Below, one piece after another: positions 1 through 35,624 of a stretch of 64,000 nt of DNA; within the stretch, counting starts at the first letter, position 1, and each line of letters starts with the position of its first letter. The translations under genes were made by a program, and so were the position numbers. The stretch is from Ischnura elegans (lineage: Eukaryota; Arthropoda; Insecta; Odonata; Coenagrionidae), in NCBI RefSeq assembly GCF_921293095.1, contig NW_025791658.1, positions 1,550,001 to 1,614,000 on the forward strand, written 5' to 3'. The notes under the pieces were generated by a model. The model saw only the letters and a list, made by a program, of their open reading frames with translations, was not told the DNA's origin and did no database searches.

Positions 1-290
1 AATGCTTTGCATGATTTTTATTCAGTGCGGCGCTTATAAATTGTTTGAATAGTTAGTCGTTATTTGAGTAAGGAAATTTAGTGATGCAAAAAAACATCGC
101 CTTTCGTCTGGATTTATGCTTATGTTTATCAGATAGATGTTTATCTGTCGCCGCACCACTCCTGTTCCTGTACATCTGTTCGCAACAGGTATATTGGCTA
201 TTATTTGCTCCACCTCCGGTAAAGCGACAATTCGCTATAGCGAGTGTTTATTAGTGCACCGTGGGGTGTCGTTATATCGAGGTTGCACTG
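1..290 (+). mobile_element. right half of a pogo/Tigger-like TIR element
   Basis: This stretch is a close match, by eye, to the right part of the element at 13136-13875. The match runs through the shared start AATGCTTTGCATGATTTTTA and the GTAAAGCGACAATTCGCTAT segment. It ends in GAGGTTGCACTG followed by TA, the expected right end for a CAGT..ACTG element inserted at TA. The left half lies outside the window. No transposase reading frame was seen, so it looks non-autonomous. Confidence 0.7.
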
Positions 291-461
291 TACATACATT
301 GATTCTTGCTACTTTCTTTCTGGTAGCCCAGAATGTATGATTTAAGTTCCAGAGAACTTTTCATAATTTGATTCAAAGCCAGGATACCCTTTTGACAGTT
401 GGAATTAGTGTGAACGCAACTGGCTGTTATTTAGACAGTGTTTTGTTTTTCCTTCTAATAG

Positions 462-3400
462 GTTTGCTCGATCAAGGAGGAGCCGCAAGAGTCGGAGATT
501 GTTGAGATTCCTGTCGAGCCAGAAGTCTCCATCAACGAGGAACCGAACGAGGTGATTATATTTTGATCATGAATTTGGTATTTTGCAGCCCTCCATTTAT
601 TTTTAATTACATACCAATCAATGGCAAAATCTCTGTTCCTTCGGTGAACACATTCCAACGAAAACAAGCCTTTTTAGGTTTGGCTTTACATTTTTGTCTG
701 AGCTTTTGTGACATCCCGGACACCCCTGGAAGGCTACGCTAATGGGAAAGGGGAAGTACACCGAAAGAGAGAGGGGGGGAGGGAACTTAACGTTGCCTTA
801 TGTACATACCCACACTAGTTTGTCCCTGAAAAAACCTATTTAGTATTAAAGGTATTGGTGTAATTTCTGCAGCTGTTTTTATTACAATGATTTGTGATAT
901 TAATGATTTTCACAACCCTGAAAAACTCACTGCTTATTTTGGAGTAGTACCATCAGTTTCTCAGTCCAATCAGCAATTTACTATAGGAAAAATCACCAAA
1001 CATGGAACAAAAATGGCACGTACTTCTTTAGTACAGTGTACCTGGTTTGCTATACGTTACAGTCCTTACTTGAAAAGCTTTTATGAACATATAAAGGAAA
1101 AGCGTGGTTCTGCTAAGGCTATTATTGCAGAACCACGCTGAGACAATATAAGTGGTTTTCCTCTTTGTTCAAAACAAATCCTGTGGTCAGAAATAATAAG
1201 TCATGTGTATAAATAACAAGTTGGTAATATCGTTAGAATCGAAATACATTATCGATAATCGCACCAGTGCACATCATTTCTGCGCAGAAAATTTGCCGAA
1301 ATCATTCACCATGTAAAGTGGTACTGACATATGTATTTAATTTGAATGATCATTCGAATGAAAGTTCCCCGTGTGAAGTGGTCTTTAGGGGAACCCGTGA
1401 GGTTAGGCAACACTGCTCCACGAGAAGATTCACGATGTTCACTCATCGGAGGTCTGAGAGCGACTCACTGAGGCCACGCCTACTGTATACTGATTGGCCA
1501 AAGGCAAAGTCCCGTGACGGGAAACTAACCCTCCCCTAATCCCCACTTGCTTAAACCACACCAGCTCACCAGCAAAAATATAATGAACAGGAAGGAGTCA
1601 ATGGGGAAATAGAGTAGTTTCCTTCATCAAATAAAACGAAAGGCATTGATTGCGATTCGTTACCCACCATTACTGTATTTATAATATACAAATTATTTGG
1701 TTTTAGAAATACCGGTTTACACGAATGGCAATGGTCCATTTTTATCCTCATTCGAAAAGGGCCAGATTGGCGCCCATGCGATGCCACTCCACGTGACGTC
1801 ACAGGGACCTAGTTTCTATACGAGAAGATAGGAGTTATACATCGTCTGAGGTTACCAATGCATGCATGAGGCACAGAGCCCAGGGAAACATATCTTAATA
1901 ATCCCCTAGCAGCAGGGTACTCAGCTACCCGCTAGCAGCCTGCGTCGTATCAGCGCTCAACTCGCCTCAAGGTCACCTCACAGGGCGGCACCGGGGACCA
2001 GAAATACGTCCTACAGAGAAATTTCCCGGCATTCATACTTACGCGTCGCGTTTTCGCGCGCTTGAAAATTTTCACTTCTCATTTATTCGCGAAAAATAGA
2101 TACGGTCATTTAAAAATCTAAAAGCGTGAAATACGTACTCCAGGAGTAATAATCTTTCGATTTAGGCAATAAAAAAATTATAGGAAACCACCCTATTAGC
2201 ATTTAATGGTGCTTGAGGCACACTATCTGTGCAGCCCCAGATCAAGAAGATGGACTCATGGCCATCTGAAGAATGCCAGGCCACAGAGGAGGAGGAATTG
2301 ACAAAACAGAAACGTACAAAACAAAACAGATGTAGTGATAGTCATACAAAAAGTTTTCTCTATTTTTCAGGCATCACGTGACCCCATGTTCACCCCTCCC
2401 CCTTTATCCACCTATGCCGATTCGATTGATTATTATCCATCCTTACTGGTGGAATATTGATTTGTCAGTAGCATTCCTGTCATTAAAATTTAAGAATGGA
2501 ATGGAATAAAATAAGAAAGATGATTATTGATTGATTGATGAGGCGTTGGGGGATCAGCTCCCAGGGCACTTAGACCTGTGGGTCCGTTGTGCTAACCACC
2601 GACAACTGAGCACCCAAAGAGGCCTATGTCCTTAGCGAAGGACAAGAGGTCCCCAATGGGAAGATCCCTTACCTCCTTGGGCTCTGTAAAAGGTTAGCCC
2701 AGGCGTCTGTATCGAGTCCTCATGATTGCGGGGCACTCGCATATTAGATGAGTGGTTGTTTCTTCTCCCATCTCACACTATCTGCACCTATCTTAGTCTG
2801 TTACCCCCAGTGGGTGCATATGTCTCATTACATGATAGTGTCCCGTAAGCAGGCCTACTACCGTCTGCACTAGTCTTCTGTTCATAAGAAGAAGTCTTCT
2901 CTCGAGTCTAGGAGAGAGCTCTCCTATAATGGTTTTAGCCTGTCGTAACCCCGGTGTTTCTCGCCAGATTTTTGAGTGTTGGGTTGATCCCCACACTTTG
3001 ATTGCAGCCATCCCCATTGAGGGGGCAAATTGCACAATTGGTTCTGGGCCAATTGGGTTCTGTTCAGCGCTGGCCTTAGCCAGTTCATCTGCCTTCTCGT
3101 TTCCAGTAATACCTGAATGTCCCGGTACCCAGAAAAGTTCTATTTTGCAACGGCTGCCCAAATTATTGAGTGCTTTGTAGCATTCAGCCAATAGCTTGGA
3201 CCTGCACCAAGGTGAGTTCAGGGCTTTAAGAGCAGCCTGACTATCGGTGCATATATGGATCAGTCTCTTGTGGAGACCTGTCTCCTCAATATCGTGCACT
3301 CAGGTTAGGATAGCAAACATTTCTGCCTGAAACACTGTGGCATATCTTCCTAGGGGGACATATATGCTCCTAAGGCGAAGATTATTAAGTGACCCTAAAA

Positions 3401-6400
3401 GTAAACAGTGGAACTTGGTTAGTACATTCCTCTTCCGCACGTTTTCCTCCTTAACACGGCAATTTCTCTCGGTCTCTGTACCATCTGAACAAAATACATG
3501 AAAAACTATTTGGTTAGTATGTTTTAAATAGTACGCTCATTTACTTACATGACGACACAACCCACAAGTTGTTTCCTAGTATTTTCTGAAGGTGTTTACA
3601 CCTTGTAATTCACAAGTTATTTTATTATTACAGTAAAACCTCTTTACATCTTAATGGAGGGGACCAAAATTTGGGCAATTTGATGTATTGGAGGTTCACT
3701 ATAGAGAGGTTTCAGTGATAGGCACCATTTTTTCATATCCTTTGGAAATGAAAGCCTTTACTGTCTTTTAAACCATTATATTTATGAGTTTAAACAAACA
3801 TGCATGCATAAGTGAACATATATTCATTGTTTAATTATTAAAGAAAGTGAGTAGTATCGCATGATTTTTTCCATGATTCGGGAGAAAACGATGTGATCTC
3901 TCTTAATTCAACAGTCACTTAAAATGATTATGATTGTTGGATACCTTTTTTCTTATTTACTGTTAGGTATGCTTTCATATGGAACAAAATGGCCACCACT
4001 AATGGTTAACGTGAAAATTACAGCACATAAAAAGTGTATGAGAAAAAAAATAAGGGTGAAACATTTATCGCTGAAAATGTCATTCCATGTACGTAATCGC
4101 AGCTGCATTAATAGTATCTAGTTGTCTCGGTACGATTTGCGGAGGTAGTTAGGCTGTCTCGTGGGTGTCTCCTTGGTATGATAAGTGGAGTTTTTATGAG
4201 ATAAAGAGGTTCACTACAAATAGGATTGCCTATAAATTTACATGTAAATCTGACGGGACGGTAGGGGTGGTATGAAGTATGGAGGTTTATGATGTAACGT
4301 GGTTCCCAACATAGAGGTTTTACTGTAACAGCCATTGATCTTCTAACATTCATCCCACATTTCTCTTTCTACGCGCGAGTGTTGTGGGAGCAGACGACGC
4401 TTTGGGTCTCCATGTGAAACTTAATGCAAAAATATTTGATCACGGCACTAGAAAGCAGACAACATTTGACAAATGTGTTAAGAGAATTTAAACTGAAGAG
4501 TATAAAAAACTGCTTATAATAACCTTTGAATGTCTTATTAATTGTGGTATCAATATTGATGTATTCATCGATATGGAATCATTCCGAGAGAGTATATGGG
4601 TCGTGCCGGAATTTATGGTACAGGAAATGTTGCCCAATTTCGATGATTTTTTATCATTTTCCACGAGTAGTCTGTGAGAAAGAAGAAATGTCCTAGGTTA
4701 ACTTGTCCCCTTAATACATAAACGACAAATCTTGGGAGAATGAAGACGTTTGTCTGTAATATCCTCGGGGAAATCTGTGTAAACATTGTGATTTTAATTC
4801 ACATGGTAGTTTTTTGGCAGTTCAGCACTAATTTTCTTGATTTTTAAAGTGAAAAGATATATTGAAAGCGATCCTAAAAGAACATCGGATCAGGGTTGAT
4901 TGATTTAAATCACTTTGATTTAAATCATGATTTAAATCACAATTTAAATCACGATTTAAATCATAATTTGATCTATATGTTTGATTTTTAAAGAGTCAAG
5001 AAAAGGAAGCTGTAAGTGTATAATTTTGATTTTTATTTCTTAATTAATACAATGAATCGACAGTTATCAGCACAATGGTGGCTCTTAAGTAGAATTATTG
5101 ATACTGTAGGAATGCATGTAACATGAAAATTTAAATAAATGGCTTTGGTTAGAATACTATAGTGTATCGGTTGAAAAAAAATTGTTTTCTGATTTAACTT
5201 CTAAGCGTAGGCACCATACAAAGTTGCAATTACAGAATTTTTCTTAACTTCGTATGCTTTAGAACCGCATAATATAGCACATTTGAGACTTCCAATGGTA
5301 ATTTTATATTATGCTGGCGTAATTTTTAATTTGATACCATTGGCATTTCCATAGTTCTCTCCCCTGATTGACTAAATGTTGTATTGAGTTTAGAGTATGT
5401 TGCCTCTTATTGTTTCTGCAAACGATCATTCTCCAATATGCTGCCCAAATAGTTAGTTTTGCAAATAACTGAATTTTTGATGAATGAAGAATCATAAAAA
5501 TCTCATTTAAATCAATAAAATCCAATTTGAATCAAAAAAATCAACAAAAATGATTTTTTTTTTAATCAGGATTTTTATCAACCCTGCTTCGGATAGTGAT
5601 AGTAATTATGATGACTTTTCCACAAACTACAATTACCCCGATTGCTATTACTGACTTCCCTGGTTAGCACGTATTCCTGGATAGTAATTTCATTTTTTGT
5701 GGTCCCTTCAAAAACGTACCGAAGAAGTTCTACAATATTTCGATAAAATTGTAAAATACAAAAAAATTGTAAGATTTCTAACATGATCAAAAAACACTTA
5801 TGAAGGTAATGTTCACATTAAGAAACAAAATTAATTATCGAAGTACCTTCTAAATATGCCCACAATTAACATGTGATGGAATTCCTCAACCTCCTAACTG
5901 TAATGCTTTCAAAAATCTTTAAAAACTATTTGAATGGAAGGATAATTAGAAAACTTTTATAATGCTCTGAATACTGTTTCAAATACTGATTTCATAAAAT
6001 TCAGTCATTTAGCCGTTGATTTAACAAGATAAAATATTTCCTGCCTATGGCCTGTATTCTTAGTGGACCCTTCAGGGCCAACCGACCCTGGATACGTCAT
6101 CAGCCCCTACATAAACCGATCTCGCCTTACATACGCCACATCTAGCCCTACAATTTGGCCATTTTTGGAACTGATCGGGCCCTACTTAATGTTTGGTACC
6201 CGAACCAGCCCTACAACCTACAAAAACATGGCGGCCAAATTTCATCTGCTGAACACTTCGATTAAAGAATGTACCGTATAAGCACGTGTAAGAGGCGCAC
6301 CTTTTTTCCCAGACATTGCAGCCGAAAATGGGGATGCGCCTCTTACACAAACATCTTATCTCCCCCCTCCCCTTCACCGGTCGCAAGTTCAAGGGGAACT

Positions 6401-10194: not shown

Positions 10195-11166
10195 CGCGTT
10201 GACTCACGTTTTGCGGACGACATGGCCACGGATTTATCTGCACACGTACATATATTTGATCTTTTTGCCATGATGACACATTGACCTTAAGGCTGTACCA
10301 AAGCCGGAAGACTGGTAACCAAAGTGTTCATTAACACTTGCGAAAATTCAGACTCTTCTTAACTTCTCTGGCATCCTGGTCCCTCTATTTTCCCACCCAC
10401 AACCTTTCGAGCTCCGACTCGGCGCTCATCATCAGGGCTACTGGATGCTGTGATACGGGAATGGGCCTGCTTATATGCTGCCCTCCCCCGGTCAGGTTCC
10501 TCGGGATTGGCTGGTAGTTTCCCGCCTGGTGGGGTTGACTCCGGATTGGTCCGTCCGTCGTATCGTCCCTTCCCTGTATTCGGTCAGTTTTTTTAGAACG
10601 GGTTTCCAAGTGCTGCTAAGGGAATACCCTGAATCGCGATTAAAGTTCTTCCTCTCCAGTTTAATTTCGATGGCCTCTTTGGTGAGACGGTCCCAAAAAC
10701 TTATGGCATGACAAAATATCTCTGTTTTTTCGAATTGAATTTTATGGTCGTGTTCGACACTATGCTCAGCAATGGCAGATTTTCCTAGCTGACCAAGCCT
10801 CAGATGCCGCTTATGTTCTTTAAGCCTGGTTTCGATGGTGCGGCCAGTTTCTCCAATGTATGCCTCACCGCACTCGCAGGGGACACGGTAGACACCAGGA
10901 ATCTTGAGACCGGCTGGGTCCTTCGCTCGTACCAGCTGTTCCTTCAATTTCATGGGAGGCTTGTGGATGGTCTCGATGTTGTGCCTCCTGAGTATCCTCG
11001 AAATCTTCCCCGAAACTGTTGAGACATAACTGCCCCGAAACTGATAGGTGACGTCGCGAGAGATAGCACTTTCATTGCTACGTTTGAATTCACTGTCGCG
11101 GCTAATAGTTTTTTTAGTTAGTTTTAAAAGTACAAATGTATTTGAAAATGGTGTAACAGCCGACAC
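10195..11166 (-). pseudogene. Penelope-like element 3' part with GIY-YIG endonuclease
   Basis: The minus frame 11166-10492 (224 aa) contains GVYRVPCECGEAYIGETGRT, RLKEHKRHL, SAIAEHSVEHDH and, near its end, ERKNFNRDSGY. This is the GIY-YIG endonuclease domain (GVY..YIG, Arg, His) with the CxC motif and C-terminal tail of Penelope-like reverse transcriptases. The RT domain is absent, and upstream residues show only the RT-EN linker. The downstream segment 10220-10480, with the CTCATCATCAGGGC motif, resembles a Penelope terminal repeat, and part of it recurs at 12845-13133. Confidence 0.85.
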
Positions 11167-11262
11167 TGGTAATAAAATAGAAACTCTGTGAATTTTGTGG
11201 AAGTAACAAAGTGTTTTTCATTATTAAACTTAAAACCGTGAATAAGCCGAGAATTTAGTATA

Positions 11263-17207: not shown

Positions 17208-17809
17208 ATGACAAGAATTAAGTCGACTGGGAAATGAACAAACTCCAATGGCCGTAAGAGGGGACCTCGTCGCAGGTATAAACAAAACACTGCGTTGGTA
17301 TGCTGGAAAGGGAAGATTTGCAGCAGTGACCAACCCCAGCCTGTCAACCAGAAACCCTTCACTAACACACGTTCAACAGTGAAGAAACCTTCGCGAGGGT
17401 TTTGGGGGGCCTCGCTAAGGTTGCTTAAGTTAAGGAAACACACACAATCAATCACACACACAACACTTACTCCGTGGGTTAAACTGCGGGAGAATTTGCT
17501 CGAAAACGAGCGATGGAAGTGCCACCTGGACGGGAGAAGCGTGCCGATTTCGGAATCCAAGATTCCCTTCTCAACGCAACTGAGGATTTGAGCTTCACTT
17601 CAACAAGGTTGAATGATGTAAAAACAATAGACATTGCTGAAATATATAGCTAGAGAGGGAGGGGGATGGTTGTGGGGTTTTAGGGTGGTGGAGGAGAGGG
17701 GGGGGTTTGAGGGCTGATGAAGACCATCATTTGGATGGAGAAAGAATTATTTTGGAGGAAGTGCCAGGCCTAAAAGAGGTTGAGCACTTTCCTTTTGTAT
17801 AGGGTGGTT
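17208..17809. other. unassigned sequence
   Basis: A minus-strand frame (17560-17033) is open for 175 codons, but its lower part overlaps the plus-strand transposase-like fragment and it has no recognisable motif. The stretch 17640-17720 is G-rich. Confidence 0.35.
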
Positions 17810-18805
17810 TCCCATTATTTTATTGTTGCCTAAATCGAAAGATTATTACTCCTGGAGTACGTATTTCACGCTCTTAGATTTTTAAATGACAATACATATC
17901 TATTTTTTCGATTGAATGAAAAGTGAAAATTTTCAAATGCTCGAAAATGCAATGGCTAAGTATGAATGCTGGGAAAACCCCGGGTGACGTTATTCTGGTT
18001 CCCGCTGTCGCCATGTGAGGTGACCTTGGGGAAAGGGTATGTGCTTTGCTGCAAAGCAGTCTGCTAGCAGTTAGCAGAGTACCCTGCTAGCAGGTAGTGC
18101 TGGGCTTAAATAAGGATTATTAATGCCCTATCAAACGAAGGAAACTTTCCGACCATAGGTAGTTTTAATAGTTGTTTATTAAGAAGTGTTTCCCTGTGCT
18201 CTGTGCCTCATGCATGCATTGGTAATCTCAGACAATGCAAAACTCCTATCTACTCGTATAGAAACTAGGTCCCTGTGACGTCACGTGGAGTGGCATCGCA
18301 TGGGGACCTATCTGGCCGTTTTCAAATGGTCATTCTGGTTCCCGCTGTCACAGTGTGAGGTGACCTTTGGGCGAGTCTTTGAGCGCTGCTACGATCCTGG
18401 CTGCTAGCAGGTAGCAGAGTACCCTGCTAGCAGGTAGCACTTGGATTATTAATGGATTATTAATACCTTGTCAAACAAAGGAAACTTTCCGACCATAGCC
18501 AGTTTTAATAGGTGATTATTAAGACATGTTTCCCTGAGCTCTGTGCCTCATGCATACATTGGTAATCTCAGATGATGTAAAACTCCCTTCTACTCCTATA
18601 GAAACTAGGTCCCTTTGACGTCACAATGAGTGGCATCACATGGGCGCCAATCTTGCCTTTTTCAAATAAGGTTAAAATTCACCATTGCCATTCGTCTAAA
18701 TCGGTATTTCTAAAACGAAATAATTTTATATTATGAATACACTAATGGTGGGTAACGAATCGCAATCAATGCATTTCATTTTCATTGATGATGGAAACTA
18801 CCCTA
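17810..18805 (+). repeat. TIR family B, copy 2, with 340-bp internal tandem duplication
   Basis: Ends are AGGGTGGTTTCC and GGAAACTACCCTA. The interior carries the CTCCTGGAGTACGTATTTCA block. A segment beginning ATTCTGGTTCCCGCTGTC is present twice in tandem (about 17991-18330 and 18331-18665), each with the CTGCTAGCAGGTAG core, which explains its extra length compared with copy 3 (651 bp). Confidence 0.7.
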
Positions 18806-19340
18806 TTGCCTTTGGGGTATGGCATTTTTTACGTTGCAGTTCTTTTAAATGCGAAGGAAGTGAATCTAATGTCATCATTCGGTAAGGTCGTTTTTAGGCA
18901 AAAGCTGAAAAGGGGTGCTTTAAAGTAGGTGGTTGAATTGCAGCATGATGTAGAAGGCAATGGAACCTGGGGGTGTAGAGGGGGGGAAGGGTGGTGGGGG
19001 GTTAGGACACTATGTTCTGCTGAGGCGCAATGTGTACACAAAGGGAAGAATGAAAAGAGGAAGAAAGTCCGGCAGATAGCAAAGAGAGTTTGTTTTTCTA
19101 GGGTTAGTGTTTGAACATTAACTCTGTGTAGCCTTAAGTACCTAAAGAGTATAGAATGTGCGCAGTGTACCTATCAAATTTCAGCGTAATAATATATTTC
19201 TTGTAGATTTACTGTTTGTGTCGCATTTTGTCTTGAGTTTTTGAATGGTGTTATTTGTGTGTGTGTATATGTATATATATATATAACATAAAAATATCCC
19301 AGGTGGGCAGAATCACAGGACACAAAAAAAGATAAAAAAC
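18806..19340. other. unassigned sequence with TA/GT microsatellite
   Basis: No gene recognised. A TGTGTGTGTA/TATATATA run is at about 19255-19285. Confidence 0.4.
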
Positions 19341-21128: not shown

Positions 21129-24100
21129 ATGAACAGTTTTGCGGTCGTGCTCTTTTTGGGCAATGAAGACACGTTGGCTGTTGTGCCTGAAAAATGGCTC
21201 ATAAGGCGTGTTGATTCCACCGAGAGCTACTGGCCGAATGGGCCAGGCACGGAGAGGAAGGTGCGCTGCCAGCGGGAACCACAACAAACGTGGGATGTAT
21301 ACCCCGTGCGAGTGTTGGAGGAAAAGTGTGGTAAGGATATCATTGTTATCGTGCATTCTTGTTGAACTTTACCATCTCTACTTTACCAGATGCATCAATT
21401 TGTTAATAGTACACTTTATTAATTATTATTTGTGCTTATTTTTTCTCAATCAGTCTTCTTCTATTATGTTGCTAAAGTTTTTCCCCAATGTATGCATTAA
21501 TACATTCATGGTAAAATTCTTTTTCCCAGAAACTTATGATCGTGCGAGGTTGAACTGTATGAAGGTAGAGAGTACCTCCAACCTTAACTCTGCTGGTCAA
21601 ATGGGAAGGGGATGCAGAATCAAGAAGAGGAAGCGTACGGATATGGAAGGTGAGAGGGGTAAGTTCTAGGGCTTAAATCAGATATTGGACATGTATTTAT
21701 CGTGTGAAACCTCCATGCAGTGAACCTCTTTACATCGTAAACCTCCATACTTCATACCACCCTTACGGTCCCGTCAGATTTACATGTAAATTTATAGGCA
21801 AACCTCTTTGTAGTGAACCTCTTTATATCGTAAAACCTCCACTTATCATACTAAGGATATACCCCCGAGACAGCCTAACATCCTCCGCAAATTGCACCGA
21901 GACAACTAGAGACCATTAATGCAGCCATGATTACGTACTTGGAATGACATTTTCAGTGATAAATATTTCACGCTTATTATTTTTCTTGTACACCTTTAAT
22001 ATGCTGTAATTTTCACGTTAATCATTAGTTGTGGCCATTTTGTTTCATATGAGAGCCTACCTAACAGTAAATAAGAAAAAAGGTAATCAACTATCATAAT
22101 CATTTTAAGTGACTGTTGAATTAAGAGAGATCACATCGTTTTCTCTAAAATCATGGTAAAAATCACGTGATAGCGCTCGCTTTCTGCTATCATTAGATAA
22201 TGAATGTATGTTCACTAATGCATGCATGTTTGTTTAAACAAATAAATATAATGGTTTAAAAGACAATAGTGCCTTTCATTTCCAAAGGATATGAAAAAAT
22301 GGTGCCTAACGCTAAAACCTCTCTATAGTGAACCTCCATATATCAAATTGCCCAAATGTTGGTTCCATCCATTAAGATGTAAAGAGGTTTTACTGTATCA
22401 TGCAAAATTGTCAGTCTCTGAACTGAGCAATTTTTAATTCTTAGGAATTTTTACATTTTCATTCATTTCAGAAAGAAGAGGAGAGAGTGACGATGAAGCA
22501 AGTACCCAGCATTCTCTTCTTCCTCCTCCTCCTCCCAAGTGTTCCTCCACGAGTCTTCCCACCAGAGGCTTGCACCAAAGTGAGGGTGGCAGTTCTACAA
22601 ATGGTTTTCAACATCAGCCTGCGAGTGAAAACTCACGAAAGCCGGAAAGTTCCAAAGATAAAGAAAAAATACCGCAGTCGCCCACGGCAAGTTGCAGCTT
22701 AGGTAAGGTGGAAAATGAAGTACAGTAAGACCTCTTTACATCGTAATGGAGGGGACCAAAATTTGGGCATTTTGAAATTTGGAGGTTCACTATAGAGAGG
22801 TTTGAGTTATATGCACCATTTTTTCATATCCTTCAGAAATGAAAGGCACTACTCTCTTTTAAACGATTATATTTATGCCTTTAAACAAACATGCATGGAT
22901 TAGTGAACATATATTCATTATTTAATGTTGACACAAAGTGAGTGCTATCAGTGGGGCAGCAAGGGGGGGGGGTTTTATCCCCCAAAACCCCCCCCAGAGC
23001 TCACAGAAATTTTTAAGTTTAATCCATTTTACTTATTTGGATCAGTATTACTTATAGAATAGTGTTAGGATTAATCAAATATCACTCAGAAAGCCGTAAA
23101 ACTCGCCATTTTGAACCATTATTCTTCAAATTTTTCTGGAGGAGGGCCCCTGCAACTCCTGCTTACCCTGGTGGGTATGCAATACCCCCACACCCATAAG
23201 TATTAGTTGCGCCCAAACCCCCCCCAGCCTTAATTCCCTGCGCCCCTGAGCACTATCGAATGATTTATAATCATGATTCAAGAGAAAACGATGTAATTCT
23301 CTCAATTCAACAGTCACTTAAAGTGATTACGATAGTTGATTACCTTTTTTCTTATTTACTGTTAGGCATGCTCTCATAGGGAACAAAATGGCCATAACTA
23401 ATGATAAATATGAAAATTACAGCACATTAAAGGTGTATAAGATAAAAAATAAGGGTGAAACATTTATTGCTGAAAATGTCATTCCATGTACGTAATCGCG
23501 GCTGCATTAATGGTCTCTAGTGGTCTTGTTACGATTTGTAAAGGTAGTTGAGACATCTCGGGAGTTTCTCCTTGGCATGATAAGTGGAGGTTTTATGTGA
23601 TAAAGAGGTTCACTTTAAAGAGGTTTTCCTATAAATTTGCATGTAAATCTGAGACGACCATAGGGGTGGTATGAAGTATGGAGGTTTACGATGTAAAGAG
23701 GTTTGCTACAAAGAGGTTTTACTGTATTGCTTAATTATAGACATAAATTACAAATGGAAAATATTCACAGTTTTTTATTTCTGCTTGCATTTTTCTCAAA
23801 TAGGATTGCAACTAAAAATGGAACGAAAAATTAATCAGGTGCTGCAAAATCAGCAAGAAATACTGATTAGGCTGAACGAAATTGCTGATAAAAGCAAAGA
23901 GAAGATTGAAGAGAATGTATTTGAGCATTTACCTTTTCAGCATTTGCGCCTCGTCACAGATTTTGAGAACGAATTGGAGAACTCGGATATCAGGAATCAA
24001 TTTGTAAGTACAGGTTTGGTCCATGTGTCACTGAATTAGTCTTTGATAATAAGTCTACAGATATATGTAAAGTGATGCACTTTATGCATTGCTACATGAT

Positions 24101-27100
24101 CTGTGGTGTATTGGATTTAAGTGTAGATAGCTTTGAACGTAGGTTTACGCAGCGAGTGGTATCTTTGCTAATGGCTTCCGGGTGCAGCTGCGTATTGCGC
24201 TTTGTTGTGCAAGCTTTCGCGTCCGTTACAGGGCACATCATCAGGCGATGAATGAAAATATGGAATTGGTTGTCAATTAATATACTCGTCCACCCTCCCC
24301 CATCCACCAGAGTCGTGTGGGGGAGGAGGGCGAAGCTGACGTCAGCAGGACTATCAGCCCTGTCCTTGAGCGGCAAGCGGACTCTTCTTCTTATCTAGCG
24401 AATAACCTTGTTGGTAACATATTCGCCGTTTTCTCTTTCTGAAAATTGTTTTCCAGGTCTGGCTGAGTTTGACGCTCCGTCAACTCTGTTGAAATTCTGG
24501 GGGCATTTCTCAATCTCAATAGCCTCCCGAATTAGTCGTCGATGATAAAATTTCTCTTGCTAACACCTGCGTCTCGTCGATTAAAATTCAATGCCCATCT
24601 TCCGAGTAAGCATGCTCCGCTATAGCCGACTTCTCCGTGTCACGATTTAATATCGCCCGTTTGTGTTCCTTAATATATAATATTCTTCATTAAACCAGTT
24701 TGGCACTTGTGAGGGAGCGCATTAAATCTACACGTTACTCTCTCCACTACTGCACCGTGGAGCTGTATTCTCTCCACCTGGAGCTCTCACGCACTCTGCG
24801 ACCGGAGGATTGGAACCACATCGATCATATCACCAACGAATCCGCCAGCAAAACCTTTTCTAAGTCTACCAGCAAGCAGAAGAAAAAATGCCAACATCTC
24901 CACGAGAGACAGCATCCTCAGCCACCCAACAACAAGGAAAAGTTAATTTGCAACCTTGCGGGCATTCAACTGAGTGACGCAGCCACGCCTGTTCTTGCGA
25001 AAGGATTAAACTTTGCCTTCTCGCCACGCCATATCCCCATGGAAGATATCATCACCGGAGTAGAAGTCGCCCTGCGGAAGCTTCCAAATCAAGATGCCGA
25101 AGAGATATGGCAAGATGTCGCCAATGTTTTGACAAAGTCTAAGCCTCCACGTCCCAACCTACCTTTGGACCAAAGACGAGCGCTGGACGACCTGAAATCC
25201 AATCGTGGCATCATCATTCTGGGAGCCAGCAAAAGGAATTCAACAGTCATCATCAATGGAAAGGAGTACCAGGCCAAGATAAAGTCACTATTGGAGGATC
25301 CAACGTATGAAAAATTGAAGTACCCGACTGCTAAAATTGAACGAGAAGTAAGGGAGCTCATCAAGCGCTCCTCCGTCTCTAACGAAGAACAATTTCAACT
25401 TTTGCCTTCGTCTGCCAGACCTCCTCGTCTCTACGGGCTGCCGAAGATTCACAAAGAAGGAGTTCCGCTTCGTCCTATCGTCAGCTGTATTGGGTCACCA
25501 ACCTATGCATTGGCACGCTATCTCGCCCACCACCTCCAACCCTTCATCGGACAGACGGGATCCTGCGTGAAGAATTCGAAAGAATTCATCGAAGTTTTGA
25601 AACAACTGAGAAAATCTGACAATGACATCCTCGTTCTGTTTATACGTTGTTTCACTTTTCACAAAGGTTCCCATAAAAGAGTCTGTTGACATCATAAAAA
25701 GGCTCACCAAATTCGGGCTTCCGACAGATTTTCAGAAACTGGCTGATTTCTGTCTGAGGAGCACCTACTTTTTGTGGGACGGAGAACTTTACAAACAAAA
25801 GGATGGAGCAGCTATGAGGAGCCCCCTAGTGATGGGTCGGTCATGAACGATCGAATCATGTGACCAGGATCATCTCTGAGCGAATCGGTGAACAGGATCA
25901 TTCAGATGACCAAGAGGGTCATTTCCTCCCGTCGGTAGTTCGTGACCGTGGACGTTCTCCATCAGTCGCGATCGTCGGTCGTTCATGATTGTTCTAGATG
26001 CAGGTCATTCATGATTGTTCTAGATGCAGGTCATTCGTGATCGTGGTCGTTCTCCGTCAATCGCCAGCCATTAGGTCATTCGTGATTGTTCATTGAATAG
26101 GTCATTCTCAAACACAGTCCAATCGCTATCATTCTTCCAAGATGTCGCGGCTGATGAACATCACTCGTGACCTGAATTGACCGTTTTTGACTGCTCTTTC
26201 ACTCGTGGTGATGAATGGCATGGTATTGCACTCACAATTAGGGGCAATTTTCGTAATAACTGTACATTTTTCTATAATCGACATTTCAGGGTACCTTCCT
26301 ATGGCCTTCATATCTCAGGTGATATGCCGAACTTCTTGAGAGAGCCCAGTTTTCTCTCATGCCTCTCAATCAGTTCCATTATTTATATTGACTTTCCATA
26401 ATAAAATATTGATCACTAACCCTATGCCCCACGAATGATTGGAAATTATCGTTGATTCTGTATCTTGAAAAAAAATAAAAGGAGTGTAATAAACAACATT
26501 TAAGGAACATTCTGTATTTTTAAATGTTTTTGAAGTAATTAAGATAAGAATTAACTAGTTTCTGGTTTTATCAAATGAAAAACTTTATAGATTAATGATA
26601 ATAACTCATTTCTCGTTTAACAAGCTACATAGATATTGCCTTTAAGAAGAAAGTGATAAGCGGGTCATGATTGACAACAGAGTAGTGATTGCCCCCTCGG
26701 TCGTGATTGTCTACGCGGTCGTGATTGCCTACTCGGTCGTGATTGCCTACTCGGTCGTGATTGCCGTCCACTTTCCACAATCATGACCTCCCGTTCATGA
26801 CAGAGTCACTCAAATGAATGGTCACCGTGATTGGGATCATGAGAATGACCGACTAAGTCCATCACTAGAGCCCCCTCTCGCCCGTTGTTGCCAACTTATA
26901 CATGGAGCATTTTGAAGAAGACGCCATGGTCTCGAGCAAGCTTCAACCATCTTGTTGGATTAGATATGTCGACGATACTTTCGTCATATGGCCACATGGA
27001 AAAGAGACGCTAAAAGAATTCGCCGGTCATCTCAACGGCATCCACCCATCCATCCAAATCGCCATGGAGATAGAGATGAATGGAGAACTACCCTTTTTAG

Positions 27101-30100
27101 ATGTTCTGGTGCAGAGAGGCATGAACGGATCCGTGAGACACGCGGTCTGCAGAGAAGCTACACACACGGACCGTTACCTCCACGCGCACTCCCACCATCG
27201 TCCGCAACAGAAAGCATCGGTCATGAAAACACTCCTTCATAGGACCAGAGTGGTTTCTGACGATTGCGCTCTGAAGAAAGAAGAGGACCTCGTTAAAGAT
27301 ACCTTCAGACAGAATGGATATTCGGAAGCCTTCATCCATTGCCACGCAAGAATACCGAATAAACGCCCACCACAAGACTGCGCGGAGAGAAGGGAGGAAA
27401 ACAAGCCAGTGGCCTATGCCACTATCCCATATGTTGCAGGAACGTCTGAGAGAATTTCTCGTGTGCTGAGGAAAGCAGGCATCGTGACGCGGCACGGAGC
27501 ATTAAAGAAGATGAGCTACTTGTTTCCCTCTGCTAAGGACCAACTCCATCCCCTCAACGTGGAAGGCATTTATGGAATCATGTGCTCATGCGGGAAATCT
27601 TACGTTGGGCAGACAGGGCACACCGTGACTTCCCGTATTAAGGAACACAATCGGGCGATATTGAATCGTGACACGGAGAAGTCGGCGATATGGGAGCATG
27701 CTTACGCGGAAGATGGGCATTGAATTTTAATCGACGAGACGCAGGTGTCAGCCAAAGAGAAATTTTATCATGGACGACTAATTCGGGAGGCTGTTGAGAT
27801 TGAGAAATGCCCCCAGAATTTCAACAGAGTTGACGGAGTGTCAAACTCAGCCAGACCTGGAAAACAATTTTCAGAAAGAGAAAACGGCGAATATGTTACC
27901 AACAAGGTTATTCGCTAGATAAGAAGAAGAGTCCGCTTGCCGCTCAAGGACAGGGCTGATAGTCCTGCTGACGTCAGCTTCGCCCTCCTCCCCCACACGA
28001 CTCTGGTGGATGGGGGAGGGTGGACGAGTATATTAATTGACGACCAATTCCGTATTTTCATTCATCGCCTGATGATGTGCCCTGTAAGGGACGCGGAAGC
28101 TTGCACGACAAAGCGCAACACGCAGCTGCACCCGGAAGCCATTAGCAATGATTAAGTGTACATAGCTTCATATCAAAAACCTCTCCATGGTGATGTTTTG
28201 GATCGGAGTTCCAATCAGGCAATTGTTATCAAAAGTAGAAATTTCAATTAATTTTGTCTGTCTCATTTTTGAGAAAGATTTTTGTAGTTAAAGATGTCAC
28301 CGTGATATTGTTAAAGGTGGGATAAGTAGTGGGATTTGATTTGTTGGAGGCAACTTTTTGTGCTCATTACTCAGGGATAAAACCATTGGGCCATAATGAT
28401 AAGGTGAATATCAGTTTATCTGTGGTACTATGTATTGTTAATACCCAGCCCAATATAGGAGATGGTTTAGATTCATTTTAATTTATGTCTGCTTGAATCA
28501 CTTCTCAATTGAGTAGATGTGTTGGCTCCCTGGTATTGTTTATTTCTAAGCAAGCCGACTGTTTAATCTTGATTCCTATTATATTCTTCACGTGAAACTG
28601 TCATATTAGATACATATAGCCTTTGGTTCAATGAATTATCCCTAATTTCATCCCTAATCCCATTGTATCTCTGCCCAACATTCAAATCGGAAACTACACC
28701 ATACCCTATGAAGAATCAATAAAAAACCTTGGTGTAACATTTGATAAACATCTTACTTGGAAGCAACAAGCACGAAGTACTAAACAGAGAACCCTAGGTA
28801 TATTACACCAGCTGTATAGATCAAAGAATATTAAACAGTGGAGCCCCGCTAATCCGAAATAATTCGGACCGGACCCATCTCGGATTAGCGAATATTTCGG
28901 ATTAAGCGGACTGTTATTAATTTAACGATAAATTATTAAATACAACGTGCAACTACATAAATTAATCGCCGAAACGCCGTTTCACGTCCATACGGTATGA
29001 GAAACAACCAACTTCATTATGTATGCCGTACGGCAACGCTCTGCACGGCTACCGCTTGAGTTCGTAGTTGCAAAGAAATCCGATAGGTAACAGCACAACC
29101 AACGTTGTTGTTCTCTCCGATAAAAAAATGTTACGGACTTTTTTAAACCAATGTAGTTTTGTTCTGTGACACTGTTTTATTTCGTTTATTACATTTTCCA
29201 ACCTGAAAACATACTGTAATTTTCAAAAATAAATTTTACCATGTTTTTTCTAGATTTTATAAAGTTTTGTTTTTTCCTGATTTTGATTTCGGATTAAGCG
29301 GATTTTCGGATTACCGGATTTCGGATTAGCGGGGCTCCGCTGTACCCCCAAAAATACGCACCATCCTTGTACAAACACTAATATATTCTTTATTAGTGAC
29401 ATAATTTTCTATTAGTCCTACGTGTTTATGTTACACCTGAATATTTTTCTTAGTATAAATAGTGATGCTGTTTCAAATGTATTTTATATGTCTGAAAATG
29501 TTGTGTGGCTAGATACAGGGATATCTGCATTCGGGATGCAATTGTACGTACAGGTATGCTTGTAAAGACTTATACAGTAAAACCTCTATGTAGTGAACCT
29601 CTTTACATCATAAACCTTCATACATCATACCATCCCTACGGTCCCGTCAGATTTACATGTAAATTTATAGGCAAACCTCTTTGTAGCGAAACTCTTTACA
29701 TCGTAAAAACTCCACTTATCATACCAAGGAGACACCCACGAGACAGCCTAACTACCTCCGCAAATCGTACCGAGACAACTAGACACCATTAATGCAGCCG
29801 CGATTACATACATGGAATGACATTTTCAGAAATAAATGTTTCACCCTTATTATTTTTTTCTTATATACCTTTAATATGCTGTAATTTTCACGTTAATCAT
29901 TAGTTGTGGCCATTTTGTTCCATATGAAAGCATACCTAACAGTAAATAAGAAAAAAGGTATCTAACCATCCTAATCATTTTAAATGACTGTTGAATTAAG
30001 TGAGATCTCATAATTTTCTCTCAAATCGTAGTAAAAATCATGTGATAGCACACCCTTTCTGTAATTATTATGTATATAGGTAATAAATATATGTTCACTA

Positions 30101-32730
30101 ATCCAGGCATGTTTGTTTAAACACATACATATAATGGTTTAAAAGACAGCAGTGCCTTTCATTTCTGAAAGATATGAAAAAATGGTGCCTATCACTGAAA
30201 CCTCTCTATAGTGAACCTCCATACATCATAATGCCCAAATTTTGGTCCCCACCGTTACGATATAAAGAGGTTTTACTGTATTTTGTTTTTGTTTTCTTTC
30301 TCTATTTTTTTGCATTTTTATGAGTCTTGCTGTAGTGTTTTTTTTTTCTTTTAACCTTTGTCAAATGATATTTGCGTAATTGTTGTGCACTTGTAAATTA
30401 TCTCATAGGCCAAATGGCCCACGATAATAAATTATTTGAATTGAATCAATACCATTTTTATTTCAGATTCATTTTTTAAAAAGAGTCGGGGGTTCCACTC
30501 CACAAGATGCGACAAGGCGAGGGTTGAGGTCAATATTTTCGGATGATATTGCAAAAAATTATTCACTGGAAGGCCTGAAAGGGAACATTAAGTTTGGAGA
30601 TACACGTATTTATTCGTCTCTGAGCTGTAAGTAAAGTTTTCAAATTTCTATTAACCCTCAACCGGTGACGTGCGATCTTAGAGTCGGCTGCGCTTCTAAA
30701 ATTATGAATATTTCAAAATATCTACAATCATTGTGAGCATCATAATTTTGCATGAGAAGGATTTAGCACTCTTAAAATGTAACGTTGTTATTATTTAATT
30801 CTGAAAATTTGCAACTGAATTTTAGTAGCGGTCTGTGAGACCTTGCGTCACAAAATTGGAAAAACCGATAAACGTAATGCTGGTGGAAATGATTCGAAAA
30901 GTTATTAAAAACAATTCTTGGTGATTTTCCAAGAATAATAATAATAATAGTAATTAATAATTTGAAAGGCAGCATTTTTAGTTGTACAACGTGTATAATT
31001 AAGTAGTACTTAATCAAATAAAGTACCATAATAAAAACAATAACTCGAGTGGTTTTTGGTCCTGTTTCAAATAACAGTTTTTACTGAAAAATTTGGTTCG
31101 TATTGGGAATGCGTAATATTAAAATAAGTTTTACAATAGTTCAGAAGTCAAAGAAACATTAAACTAAGCTATAAAAATGACTTTGCATTATATTATGAAT
31201 TTTTGTTTTATTGCGGTCTTCCAGTCACTGGTAGTGTAACGAGAATTGCACTTCAGTGTTTAAGGGTTAATTAAATACTTCAATAAGACCCAACATATGT
31301 CAGTAGCTTAGGTATTTTCCTTGAGAGCTAGCGGCAATCCCTCCACGCTTTCTGTTGAAATTCTCGTGAGGTCATTACTTTTGTTATTTTGTGCTGTCTA
31401 GAGCCCGGAATTGAATTATGATTTCTAGTTTCTTGGGTTGAATGGAAAGGTATTACCCTCCCTTTTAATACAACCTTAGCATTCAATTATTTACATTAGC
31501 ATTCCCTTGATGTTCCACATTGGCTGTTGTCAAAAAAAATCATGAGATAATAGGGCGGTTTCCTTTTATTTTTTTATTGCCCAAATCGAAAGATTATTAC
31601 TCCTGGAGTACGTATTTCATGCTTTTAGATTTTTAAATGACGATATCTATTATTCGCGATTAAATGAAAAGTGAACAATTTCAAGCGCACGAAAACGTAA
31701 TGGCAAAGTATGAATGGTGTGACGTCATTCTGGTTCCTGCTGTCACCGTGTGAGGTGACCTTGGGGCGATGCTTTGAGCACTGATACGATGCAGGCTGCT
31801 AGCATGTAGCAGAATACCCTGCTAGCAGATAGCGCTTCGCTTAAATAAGGATTATTAATACCCTATCAAAAGAAGAAAACTTTACGACCTTAGCCAGTTT
31901 TAATAAGTGATTATTAAAATATGTTTCCCTGAGCTCCGTGCCTCATGCATGTATTGCTATTCTCAGACGATGTAAAACTCCTATCTACTCGTATAGAAAC
32001 TACGTCCCTGTGACGTCGCGTGGAGTGGCATCGCACGGGCGCCAATCTGGCCTTTTTCTAATGAGGTTAAAATTGACCGTTAACATTCGTCTAAATTGTG
32101 ATTTCTAAAACCAAATGATTTGTATATTATGAATACTCTCATGGTGGATAACGAATCCTAATCAATGCTTTTCATTTTCTTTGAAGAAGGAAACTACCCT
32201 ATTTGTGTTTTCTTTGAATAACTTTTTATCGGTGTTGTGCTAGCTTATTTCATGAACATTTGGACTTAAAATTTTGTTTCTCTGAAGTAATGAAACCACT
32301 TTCCAGCCTTAAATTTAACAGGTGGATCTTGTGGGAAAATGAACTGCTCAGGCCTTAATTATCAAAGACATTTCAAGATGTAATGTAATGACAGTTATGC
32401 TAATGGAATAGCTCAAGAGAATGACTTAAGTATATGCAGCCAAGCTCATGTCTCGAACCCTTCTTTGTTATTTCATATGAAGTAATTTCCTGCCTTAGAG
32501 AAAGTCCAAATTAGTGGGCTCTTGCCTAGGTGGCAAGTGCAATACTGAACGTGTTACAATTCTGTGATGACCCGTTGTCTTATGCTGGTAATTTGCTTAT
32601 AATGACAGGTGCAGTTCTAAGAAATTTCCCAGCCGCAACAAAGAAAGAAGTGGATTCAGCTATAAGGGATTGGCTGAGGCACGCTAATGATAGACGTAAA
32701 TACAAGAAAAATGTAACTGGTGGTGTTTAA
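21129..32730 (+). CDS. DUF4806-domain protein gene, six exons
   Basis: Exons are 21129-21330, 21530-21649, 22472-22702, 23804-24003, 30467-30626 and 32530-32730. Exon 1 (MNSFAVVLFLGNEDTLAVVP, YWPNGPG, TWDVYPVRVLEEKC) is the usual N-terminus of DUF4806 proteins. Exon 2 gives TYDRARLNCMKVESTSNLNS, and exon 3 is Ser/Pro-rich. Exon 4 has a coiled-coil-like segment (MERKINQVLQNQQEILIRLN) and LPFQHLRLVTDFENEL, exon 5 GGSTPQDATRRGLRSIFSDD, and exon 6 ATKKEVDSAIRDWLRHANDR with the stop. All borders are GT..AG and phases fit through exon 5. Exon 5 ends in phase 1 but exon 6 needs phase 0, so a base is lost or gained or a small exon is missed. DUF4806 has no established function; some members lie in or near transposons. 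Introns 2, 3 and 4 are mostly transposon sequence. Confidence 0.8.
21702..22395 (+). mobile_element. TIR family A element in intron 2 of the DUF4806 gene
   Basis: The left end is degraded (GTGTGAAACCTCC) and the right end is intact (GAGGTTTTACTG, TA at 22396-22397). It fills most of the 0.8-kb intron, ending 76 bp before the next exon. Confidence 0.75.
22723..23724 (-). mobile_element. TIR family A element filling intron 3 of the DUF4806 gene
   Basis: Left CAGTAAGACCTCTTTACATC, right GAGGTTTTACTG, TA on both sides. It starts 20 bp after the exon 3 donor and ends 79 bp before exon 4, so nearly the whole intron is transposon. It contains a secondary hAT-like insertion at about 22950-23250. Confidence 0.8.
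22951..23251 (-). mobile_element. hAT-type MITE family C, nested, with G/C runs
   Basis: Ends are CAGTGGGGCAGCAAGGGGGG and, inverted, CAGGGGCGCAGGGAATTAAG. Flanks AGTGCTAT and AGCACTAT agree at six of eight positions. Related copies are at 38634-41740 (split), 56787-57135 and, more distantly, 50805-51026. The common CAGKGGCGYAGC start and the 8-bp duplication fit hAT. The TACCCTGGTGGGTATGCAAT core is shared. Confidence 0.65.
24700..27723 (+). pseudogene. Penelope-like RT/GIY-YIG polyprotein, nearly full length, broken
   Basis: The N-terminal domain and RT fingers run from 24700 (a TTG-initiated open frame; the true start is unclear). They include RPPRLYGLPKIHKEGVPLRP and GSPTYALARYLAHHL. A one-base shift near 25635 precedes VVSLFTKVPIKES. 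The frame then runs to AAMRSPL, where the hAT element enters, and resumes with SPVVANLYMEHF. The catalytic YVDDTFVIW box and the GIYGIMCSCGKSYVGQTG endonuclease follow (27570-27620). A stop after EDGH (27721) and a shift truncate the C-terminal tail (EIEKCPQNFNR). All RT and EN core residues are visible, so the copy died recently. Confidence 0.85.
25827..26867. mobile_element. non-autonomous hAT element, 1041 bp, perfect 8-bp duplication
   Basis: GAGCCCCC occurs at 25819-25826 and 26868-26875. The element starts TAGTGATGGGTCGGTCATGA and ends, inverted, TAGTGATGGACTTAGTCGGT, matching the hAT terminal rule (TAGNG). Near both ends are short tandem units (TCGGTCGTGATTGCCTAC at 26697-26765; a 29-bp unit at 25980-26040), which may be transposase binding arrays. 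No coding capacity. It sits in the RT palm of the Penelope element and is therefore younger. Confidence 0.9.
28169..28639. other. unassigned intronic sequence
   Basis: No coding or repeat signature recognised in this part of intron 4. Confidence 0.35.
28836..29342. mobile_element. pogo/Tigger-like MITE, CAGTGGAGCCCCGCTAATCC ends
   Basis: The left end CAGTGGAGCCCCGCTAATCC and its inverted right end (one mismatch) are the strongest TIRs here. The CGGATTA motif recurs inside both arms. TA follows the right end. It interrupts a LINE reading frame that resumes on the far side. Length 507 bp, no coding frame. Confidence 0.85.
29575..30278 (+). mobile_element. TIR family A element, 704 bp
   Basis: CAGTAAAACCTCTATGTAGT to GAGGTTTTACTG with TA on both sides (29573-29574, 30279-30280). 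It lies inside the LINE fragment, in intron 4 of the DUF4806 gene. Confidence 0.85.
30655..31266. mobile_element. TTAA-flanked piggyBac-like MITE, 612 bp
   Basis: TTAA at 30651-30654 and 31267-31270. The left end CCCTCAACCGGTGACGTGCG and the inverted right end (CCCTTAAACACTGAAGTGCA) are imperfect TIRs. Starting with CCCT next to TTAA is typical of piggyBac relatives. No transposase. It lies 25 bp after the exon 5 donor of the DUF4806 gene. Confidence 0.7.
31551..32201 (+). repeat. TIR family B, copy 3
   Basis: Ends TAGGGCGGTTTCC and GGAAACTACCCTA. It is the simple form of the family, with a single CTGCTAGCAGATAG core, in the last intron of the DUF4806 gene. Flanking bases do not settle the target duplication. 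Confidence 0.7.
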
Positions 32731-34874: not shown

Positions 34875-35624
34875 GTCCTGGATAGCGGAGGTGAACGTGG
34901 ACCAGGGGGTGAGAGTCTACAGGGGATGCACTCTGGAGAAACGGTGGACAAGACTAACGAAAGCCGCAAGAGCGACGTCGGTGGCGGAAGGCAGCACGCG
35001 TGCGGCACGTGTTCGATGTCATTCGCTCGGAAAGACGACCTCAGCAGGCACGTGCGTTCGCATTCTGGAGAGAGGCCTTATTCGTGCAGGCTCTGCCTCA
35101 AAACCTTCACTCAGAGCTTCAACCTGGACAGGCACGTGCGCGCGCACGGCTCGGAGAGGCCCCACGCGTGCGGCGAGTGTAAGAAATCGTTCGTCGACAG
35201 CGGGGATCTCACGAAGCACATGCGGACGCACACGGGAGAGAAGCCGTACGCTTGCACCGTGTGCTGCAAGGCGTTCAGCAAGAGCTGCAACCTCAACAGA
35301 CACGTCTTGACGCACACGGGACAGAAATTGTATTCGTGCGACGTCTGTTGCAAGGCTTTCTCCGGGAGTGATCACCTCCGCGTGCACATGCGAGTACATT
35401 CGGGAGAGAAACCGTACTCGTGCAATGCGTGTCCCAAGTCGTTTGCGCAGAGGAGCGACCTGAAAGCGCACGTCCGCACGCACACGGGGGAAAGACCGTA
35501 CAAGTGCAGTGTTTGCGCAAAGGCATTCACGCAGAGTAGCAACCTCGACAGGCATATGCTCATTCATAAATCGGTTAAGGACGAAAATTTGAGAAAGGAG
35601 GAGGAGAAGGAGTCGATGACGTGA
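34875..35624 (+). CDS. C2H2 zinc-finger protein, last exon, seven fingers
   Basis: After the acceptor TTTTTATTCTGAAG the frame is open from 34875 to the stop at 35622-35624 (an internal ATG is at 34926). It encodes a short Gly/Glu-rich linker, then seven fingers, each C-x2-C-x12-H-x3-H. Linkers are mostly canonical (HTGEKPY, HSGERPY, HTGERPY). Helix positions differ between fingers (e.g. RKDDLSRH, QSFNLDRH, DSGDLTKH), so a specific DNA site of about 20 bp is likely. The tail is a charged KEEEKE. It is presumably a nuclear DNA-binding regulator. 5' exons are not identified; exon 462-551 is the style of partner expected but is too far away to link. GC-rich codon use differs from the AT-rich surroundings, as expected for a live exon. 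Confidence 0.9.
   Translation, partial: VLDSGGERGPGGESLQGMHSGETVDKTNESRKSDVGGGRQHACGTCSMSFARKDDLSRHVRSHSGERPYSCRLCLKTFTQSFNLDRHVRAHGSERPHACGECKKSFVDSGDLTKHMRTHTGEKPYACTVCCKAFSKSCNLNRHVLTHTGQKLYSCDVCCKAFSGSDHLRVHMRVHSGEKPYSCNACPKSFAQRSDLKAHVRTHTGERPYKCSVCAKAFTQSSNLDRHMLIHKSVKDENLRKEEEKESMT

Follow-up and report, generated by a model that had tools for sequence, protein, structure and literature searches.

How a piece of bacterial transposase gene came to lie among the chromosomal sequences of the damselfly Ischnura elegans, from which bacterium it was derived and what has become of it since are questions raised by a single stretch of 64,000 nucleotides (NCBI RefSeq assembly GCF_921293095.1, contig NW_025791658.1, positions 1,550,001 to 1,614,000), the whole of which is here called the window. 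The window is animal DNA containing many retrotransposon and DNA-transposon remains. A long open piggyBac-type transposase (44168-45781, - strand, DDE_Tnp_1_7) is 98% identical (316/323) to an annotated I. elegans protein. Penelope-like remains were recognised by eye at 10495-11217 (-), 24694-25686 (+) and 26869-27720 (+), the first of which matches the Pfam GIY-YIG domain just under the curated cut-off (E 3.5e-4), while the other two gave no Pfam match.

Identity and gene context of the IS110 fragment

The fragment and the coding features around it are located as follows:

462..551, + strand: likely zinc-finger gene exon, VCSIKEEPQESEIVEIPVEPEVSINEEPNE, phase 0 at both ends, with AG/GT borders
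830..1138, + strand: open frame of 103 codons, the first codon and the last four codons of which overlap or lie in the junctions
833..1128, + strand: Wolbachia-derived IS110 fragment, transposase residues ~210-307, Transposase_20 domain (Pfam, 84.3% DNA identity, trees)
34875..35621, + strand: C2H2 zinc-finger exon, the phase of which fits exon 462-551 (phase 0, Pfam)

The 830-1138 frame matches the Pfam Transposase_20 profile (PF02371) over positions 3-87 of 87, with an E-value of 2e-20 and a score of 73.4 bits (cut-off 21.3), and 63 of the 64 candidates matched at E <= 1e-3 when the frame was used as a protein query. Chance resemblance to IS110 is excluded. The NCBIfam model transpos_IS110 is matched only at model positions 221-325 of 343, and the score of 76.9 bits falls below the whole-protein cut-off of 140, as is expected of a fragment. 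The initial annotation, which placed an IS110 Transposase_20 domain at 830-1165 or 830-1141, was correct as to the domain but not as to the right limit; when the IS110 of Wolbachia phage WO is taken for comparison, donor homology extends over about 833-1128 (~296 bp), and the terminal codons of the open frame (EPR) are junction-derived and non-IS110. Its further reading, that only the C-terminal domain is kept, with the QSN serine present and the DEDD domain gone, is borne out. A tblastn comparison of the 64-kb window with the part of the WO IS110 that precedes its frameshift aligned residues 210-307 at this place and nowhere else at a meaningful score, and the DEDD domain, which the Wolbachia relatives tested possess, was absent from the whole window in this comparison. 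The QSN serine, which we take to be the catalytic residue, is retained in the fragment and is invariant in all 12 rows of the alignment (A1).

The bridge RNA of IS110 elements is encoded at the element ends. Neither end is present here, the host repeat taking over at 832 and 1136, and no Rfam family reached its gathering score in window positions 1-4000. Since the DEDD domain, the remaining gene and both element ends are missing, the fragment cannot transpose as IS110. It belongs to the IS110 family by sequence homology and lacks the DEDD domain and element ends of a functional element; no working IS110 in the animal is implied by it.

The phase-consistent three-exon gene model within which the domain had been placed stands in part. 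Exons 462-551 and 34875-35621 fit together, but the exon-like stretch at 22472-22702 runs into a terminal stop if the phase of 462-551 is carried through it. An intronic position is plausible, and the insert would then be situated some 280 bp inside an intron of 34 kb.

Wolbachia as the donor

A DNA search of phage records returned two matching records, both of Wolbachia phage WO (MN180250 and MN180252), with 84.0% identity, and the identity to the WO locus L017 is 84.3% over 842-1128. At the protein level, 2133 proteins among 3533 candidates matched the WO transposase at E <= 1e-30, and the best 120 of these 2133 comprise one group at 80-100% identity, the next standing at 70% or less. Fourteen rows of the 80-100% group were labelled 'wol' in the trees; three of the 14 (P0191, P0192 and P0195) are Wolbachia-named, and the remainder were labelled by similarity, with P0184 being 100% identical to the WO query. 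Among the matches listed, the proteins closest to the fragment are P0192 (87.8%), followed by P0191 and P0195 (both 86.7%). The fragment falls inside a Wolbachia-type clade in both trees, comprising 17 rows with support of 94/91 in the first (30 other rows) and 19 rows with support of 98/97 in the second (23 other rows). This clade also takes in P0001 and P0002 (source 'lgn'), which are degenerate or chimeric IS110 proteins and may represent Wolbachia pseudogenes or insertions in the nuclear genomes of other hosts. The phage WO IS110 (L017:2750-2880) is frameshifted near its 3' end, beside an A run, relative to other Wolbachia IS110 proteins, and P0184 (34 member sequences) reads like this frameshifted WO IS110.

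The DNA identity, protein identity and trees support Wolbachia as the donor, this type of IS110 also being carried in phage WO. The transfer from a bacterium or endosymbiont into an animal genome that was originally proposed is thus upheld and its donor named; the nearest named protein matches (P0192, P0191 and P0195) are those of a bacterium and not of an animal-encoded family. IS elements pass between strains, and no supergroup is therefore assigned to the donor. The two closest relatives whose names state a group belong to group A; the published I. elegans Wolbachia is assigned to supergroup B in the portion of the source consulted (PMC8466699). One I. elegans Wolbachia genome of 2.19 Mb is described as rich in WO prophage (PMC9894559, as consulted in part). 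No match to an exact donor strain was found among the sequences compared.

Insertion within a MITE-like host repeat

The sequences on either side of the fragment are host repeats, the parts of which are arranged as follows:

699..832, + strand: left part of a dispersed MITE-like host repeat (outer end ~684), ending ...CTGAAAA at the IS110 start
1101..1139, no strand: perfect 13-bp inverted repeat at the right junction, arms 1101-1113 and 1127-1139
1136..1153, + strand: short middle piece of the first host repeat, CGCTGAGACAATATAAGT, overlapping the inverted-repeat arm by 4 bases
1170..1387, + strand: second dispersed host repeat, a piece nested in the first (best 40 of 350 candidates scored)
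1387..1590, + strand: right part of the first host repeat, matching 16/19 other fetched copies

In a genome-wide search with the left flank (699-832), 39 of the best 40 scored among 457 candidates, the window included, reach base 832. None of 19 other fetched copies of the repeat shows IS110 in the 45 bases after ...GAAAA, and most other copies run on as CGTGTGAGTCATGGGTGGCCACAGG... towards GAGACAATATA (14/19 inspected for this stretch). As copies elsewhere continue past the left boundary, the IS110 piece is internal to the repeat. The left boundary had also been considered as a transposon end, three window copies sharing ...TGAAAA, and this was rejected because other copies extend beyond that base. 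The repeat resumes at 1136, with 15 of 15 bases of 1136-1150 present in copy L046, while L035 goes on with AAGT; by count on copy L033, the IS110 piece stands in place of about 40 bp of the repeat. The boundary of the second repeat lies at about 1387 (11 copies compared).

The first repeat is short, dispersed, non-coding and present in many copies, as is expected of a MITE. In L033 and L048 the inverted-repeat ends lie about 0.5 kb apart, and the terminal inverted repeats measure 32 nt at 84% and 41 nt at 78%, respectively; none were found in L034 and none were paired at the ends of the window copy. The terminal inverted-repeat alignment beats shuffles in three of four copies, the exception being the worn copy of the window (13 against a shuffle maximum of 16). 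The surrounding repeat is MITE-like rather than a proven MITE. Host repeat lies within a few bases of the fragment on both sides, on a scaffold (C15) of 11.9 Mb. The smallest I. elegans chromosome listed in the portion of the source consulted is 21.32 Mb (PMC9975421), and C15 is thus presumably an unplaced scaffold. With host repeats flanking both of its sides, the IS110 piece is very probably integrated in host nuclear DNA.

The fold of the inverted repeat at the right junction far surpasses those of 200 shuffled sequences (z -7.1). Its second arm is not found in the donor, the sequence of which diverges there, suggesting that this arm was probably copied from the first. The chance of a random 11-mer matching the reverse complement of the fragment is 6.8e-5; if the junction CGCT is assigned to the host repeat, only seven bases are templated and the snap-back signal is weaker.

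The locus is most probably a nuclear Wolbachia insertion, in which ~296 bp of an IS110 transposase gene were captured as filler during the repair of a break inside a host MITE-like repeat. A copy of the repeat would have been broken internally, Wolbachia IS110 DNA would have been taken up in the repair in place of the lost stretch of repeat, the second arm of the right junction would apparently have been templated from the first, and the piece would afterwards have drifted without function. End-joining repair characteristically leaves small pieces of filler and insertions templated by snap-back; when gap repair is aborted after a transposon has been excised, the resulting copies are internally deleted and contain filler. 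The junction layout is compatible with both, and the break may accordingly have been repaired either by end joining with snap-back or by abortive gap repair following excision of a transposon.

Further IS110 fragments and the number of transfers

Whole-genome protein searches with the window fragment and with the full-length P0190 found the same three IS110 places, all of them partial. The search of the host assembly for further copies, suggested by the initial annotation, thus added two fragments to that of the window:

C15, window 833-1128: window copy
C16, G000:C16:8273949-8274362 (L024, L027, L029): P0190 residues 202-339, 2 stops
C2, G000:C2:138614304-138614687 (L025, L028, L030): P0190 residues 166-294, 4 stops

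The count of three rests on protein searches and is a lower bound, and neither of the two whole-genome protein searches found a complete IS110. Beside the C16 copy lies a stretch which is presumably mariner-like. A repeat family represented in the window at 1605-2198, 17799-18810 and 31548-32204 (80-91% identity) also occurs 1.8 kb downstream of the C16 fragment. In the sequence surrounding the C16 and C2 copies (9.9 kb each), neither window 699-832 nor 1387-1590 appeared among the matches listed at E <= 1e-8, a weak negative, and the link with a MITE-like repeat consequently rests on one case. It is conceivable, albeit unlikely, that breaks at host DNA transposons form a recurrent entry door for such DNA, the repair of a MITE excision gap having captured the IS110 filler, and that the resulting composite MITE might be moved by a host transposase. 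If so, MITE copies with internal filler would record past infections.

Over 271 bp the C16 and C2 copies agree at 90.8% of positions, and those two could share an origin, which speaks for a single transfer that was later duplicated in the host to give three fragments. This is nevertheless a decidedly improbable history, given that the tree places the C16 and C2 copies with P0190 but the window copy with P0191, P0192 and P0195, that one clade for all three host fragments is rejected (p-AU 0.0066) and that the ends differ among the three. The separate groupings and this rejection point to at least two donor IS110 lineages.

Elsewhere in the host genome the capsid protein of phage WO has two short matches, L064 (G000:C8:59745094-59745255, 78% over 54 residues) and L065 (G000:C6:86723873-86723977, 74% over 35 residues), each with one TGA stop. 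Searches of the 64-kb window with pieces of one WO record and by megablast against phage records, in three parts, found no more Wolbachia DNA beyond the IS110 piece, and blastn of window 1140-1400 likewise found no further Wolbachia DNA. When WO pieces were compared with the 9.9-kb stretches L026-L028, only the known IS110 fragments were matched.

Alternative sources of the fragment

The possibility that the fragment derives from another bacterium, such as Rickettsia or another symbiont, has very little in its favour. Torix Rickettsia are reported from Odonata in the portion of the source consulted (PMC7794209). The IS110 family is widespread, and 2045 plasmid records match the fragment, but all 2045 do so at less than 60% identity, the 16 loci recovered in an alignment-pattern scan of bacterial genome contigs reach only 55-65% identity, and the Rickettsiales-named row P0240 lies outside the Wolbachia-type clade in both trees. 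None of these 16 loci is titled Wolbachia, because the two short patterns of the scan do not fit the WO sequence; a single-protein scan of bacterial genome contigs found no relative.

An assembly chimera, in which Wolbachia reads were misjoined into a host scaffold, is similarly far-fetched. Such reads existed in the sample, as I. elegans carries Wolbachia according to the parts of two studies consulted (PMC8466699, PMC9894559). The fragment, however, differs by at least 12% from every listed Wolbachia protein and sits on a long end branch, it is a piece of only 296 bp with host repeat within a few bases on either side, and other scaffolds contain two more copies, both decayed.

Probable decay and fate of the fragment

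The fragment departs from none of the 26 columns that are invariant in 42 rows; of 61 columns that do not vary among 12 Wolbachia-type rows (a set that excludes P0184 and P0194), it departs from three. Compared with the WO copy it differs at 10 first, 9 second and 30 third codon positions, 23 of the 89 codons being changed synonymously and 17 otherwise, and this third-position excess suggests that much of the divergence arose under selection in bacteria. The end branch of the fragment is long (0.14 in the first tree and 0.19 in the second) and those of its closest neighbours are near zero, which suggests drift since the transfer. The intact frame and the absence of departures from the 26 invariant columns leave a loss of constraint unproven for the window copy, and count against its explanation as captured filler that has since drifted. 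The stops in the C16 and C2 copies are as expected of decaying inserts. Co-option by the host as an exon or regulatory element is scarcely credible, for while an open frame of 103 codons and the universally conserved residues are kept, the fragment comprises a portion of a single domain, lodged in a repeat within a probable intron, and the survival of a frame of this length through a modest number of changes is judged unremarkable. The fragment is real but probably dead.

Relation to known transfers and significance

The NUWTs of arthropods and nematodes are likewise Wolbachia DNA, short or long, in the host nucleus, and are described as mostly decaying in the parts of the literature consulted (PMC12693587, PMC9894559), where those of filarial nematodes are associated with some repeat classes. 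The damselfly piece is very probably itself a NUWT (nuclear Wolbachia transfer), being Wolbachia by phylogeny and bordered by host repeats on both sides, and it differs from those described in consisting of one 296-bp IS110 piece within a MITE-like repeat, where both the empty site and an apparently templated junction can be read. A degenerate Wolbachia transposase insert of 475 bp in Formica exsecta is also a lone piece, of nearly the same size and content, in a different host; the transposase family of this insert is not named in the text consulted, which places an IS110 transposase near another Wolbachia insert of this ant (PMC6469114). The phage WO IS110 (MN180250, MN180252; L017) shares the Transposase_20 domain and 84% DNA identity with the damselfly piece, but is phage-borne and has the DEDD domain, whereas the damselfly piece is without most of the gene. 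In I. elegans itself, a chimeric protein arising from horizontal gene transfer (XP_046403459.1) contains a fragment of likely bacterial-endosymbiont origin; as far as the source was consulted, it forms a fusion with a host gene and carries a protein annotation, while the IS110 piece is probably intronic and shows no sign of use (PMC13389597). The gene set of Calopteryx splendens is reported, in the part of the source consulted, to include 20 Wolbachia-similar genes that could be transfers (PMC5381652). No description of IS110 in a damselfly nuclear genome was found in the titles and abstract openings of the open literature searched.

Leakage of this kind from bacterium to host is already known, and the interesting part of the locus is its readable junctions. 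A donor can be named for a lone bacterial transposase piece in a damselfly, and the joining of a tiny endosymbiont fragment into a chromosome can be read from the uninterrupted repeat and the apparently templated junction. That a single damselfly genome contains three IS110 fragments, derived from no fewer than two Wolbachia lineages of IS110, points to repeated past transfers.
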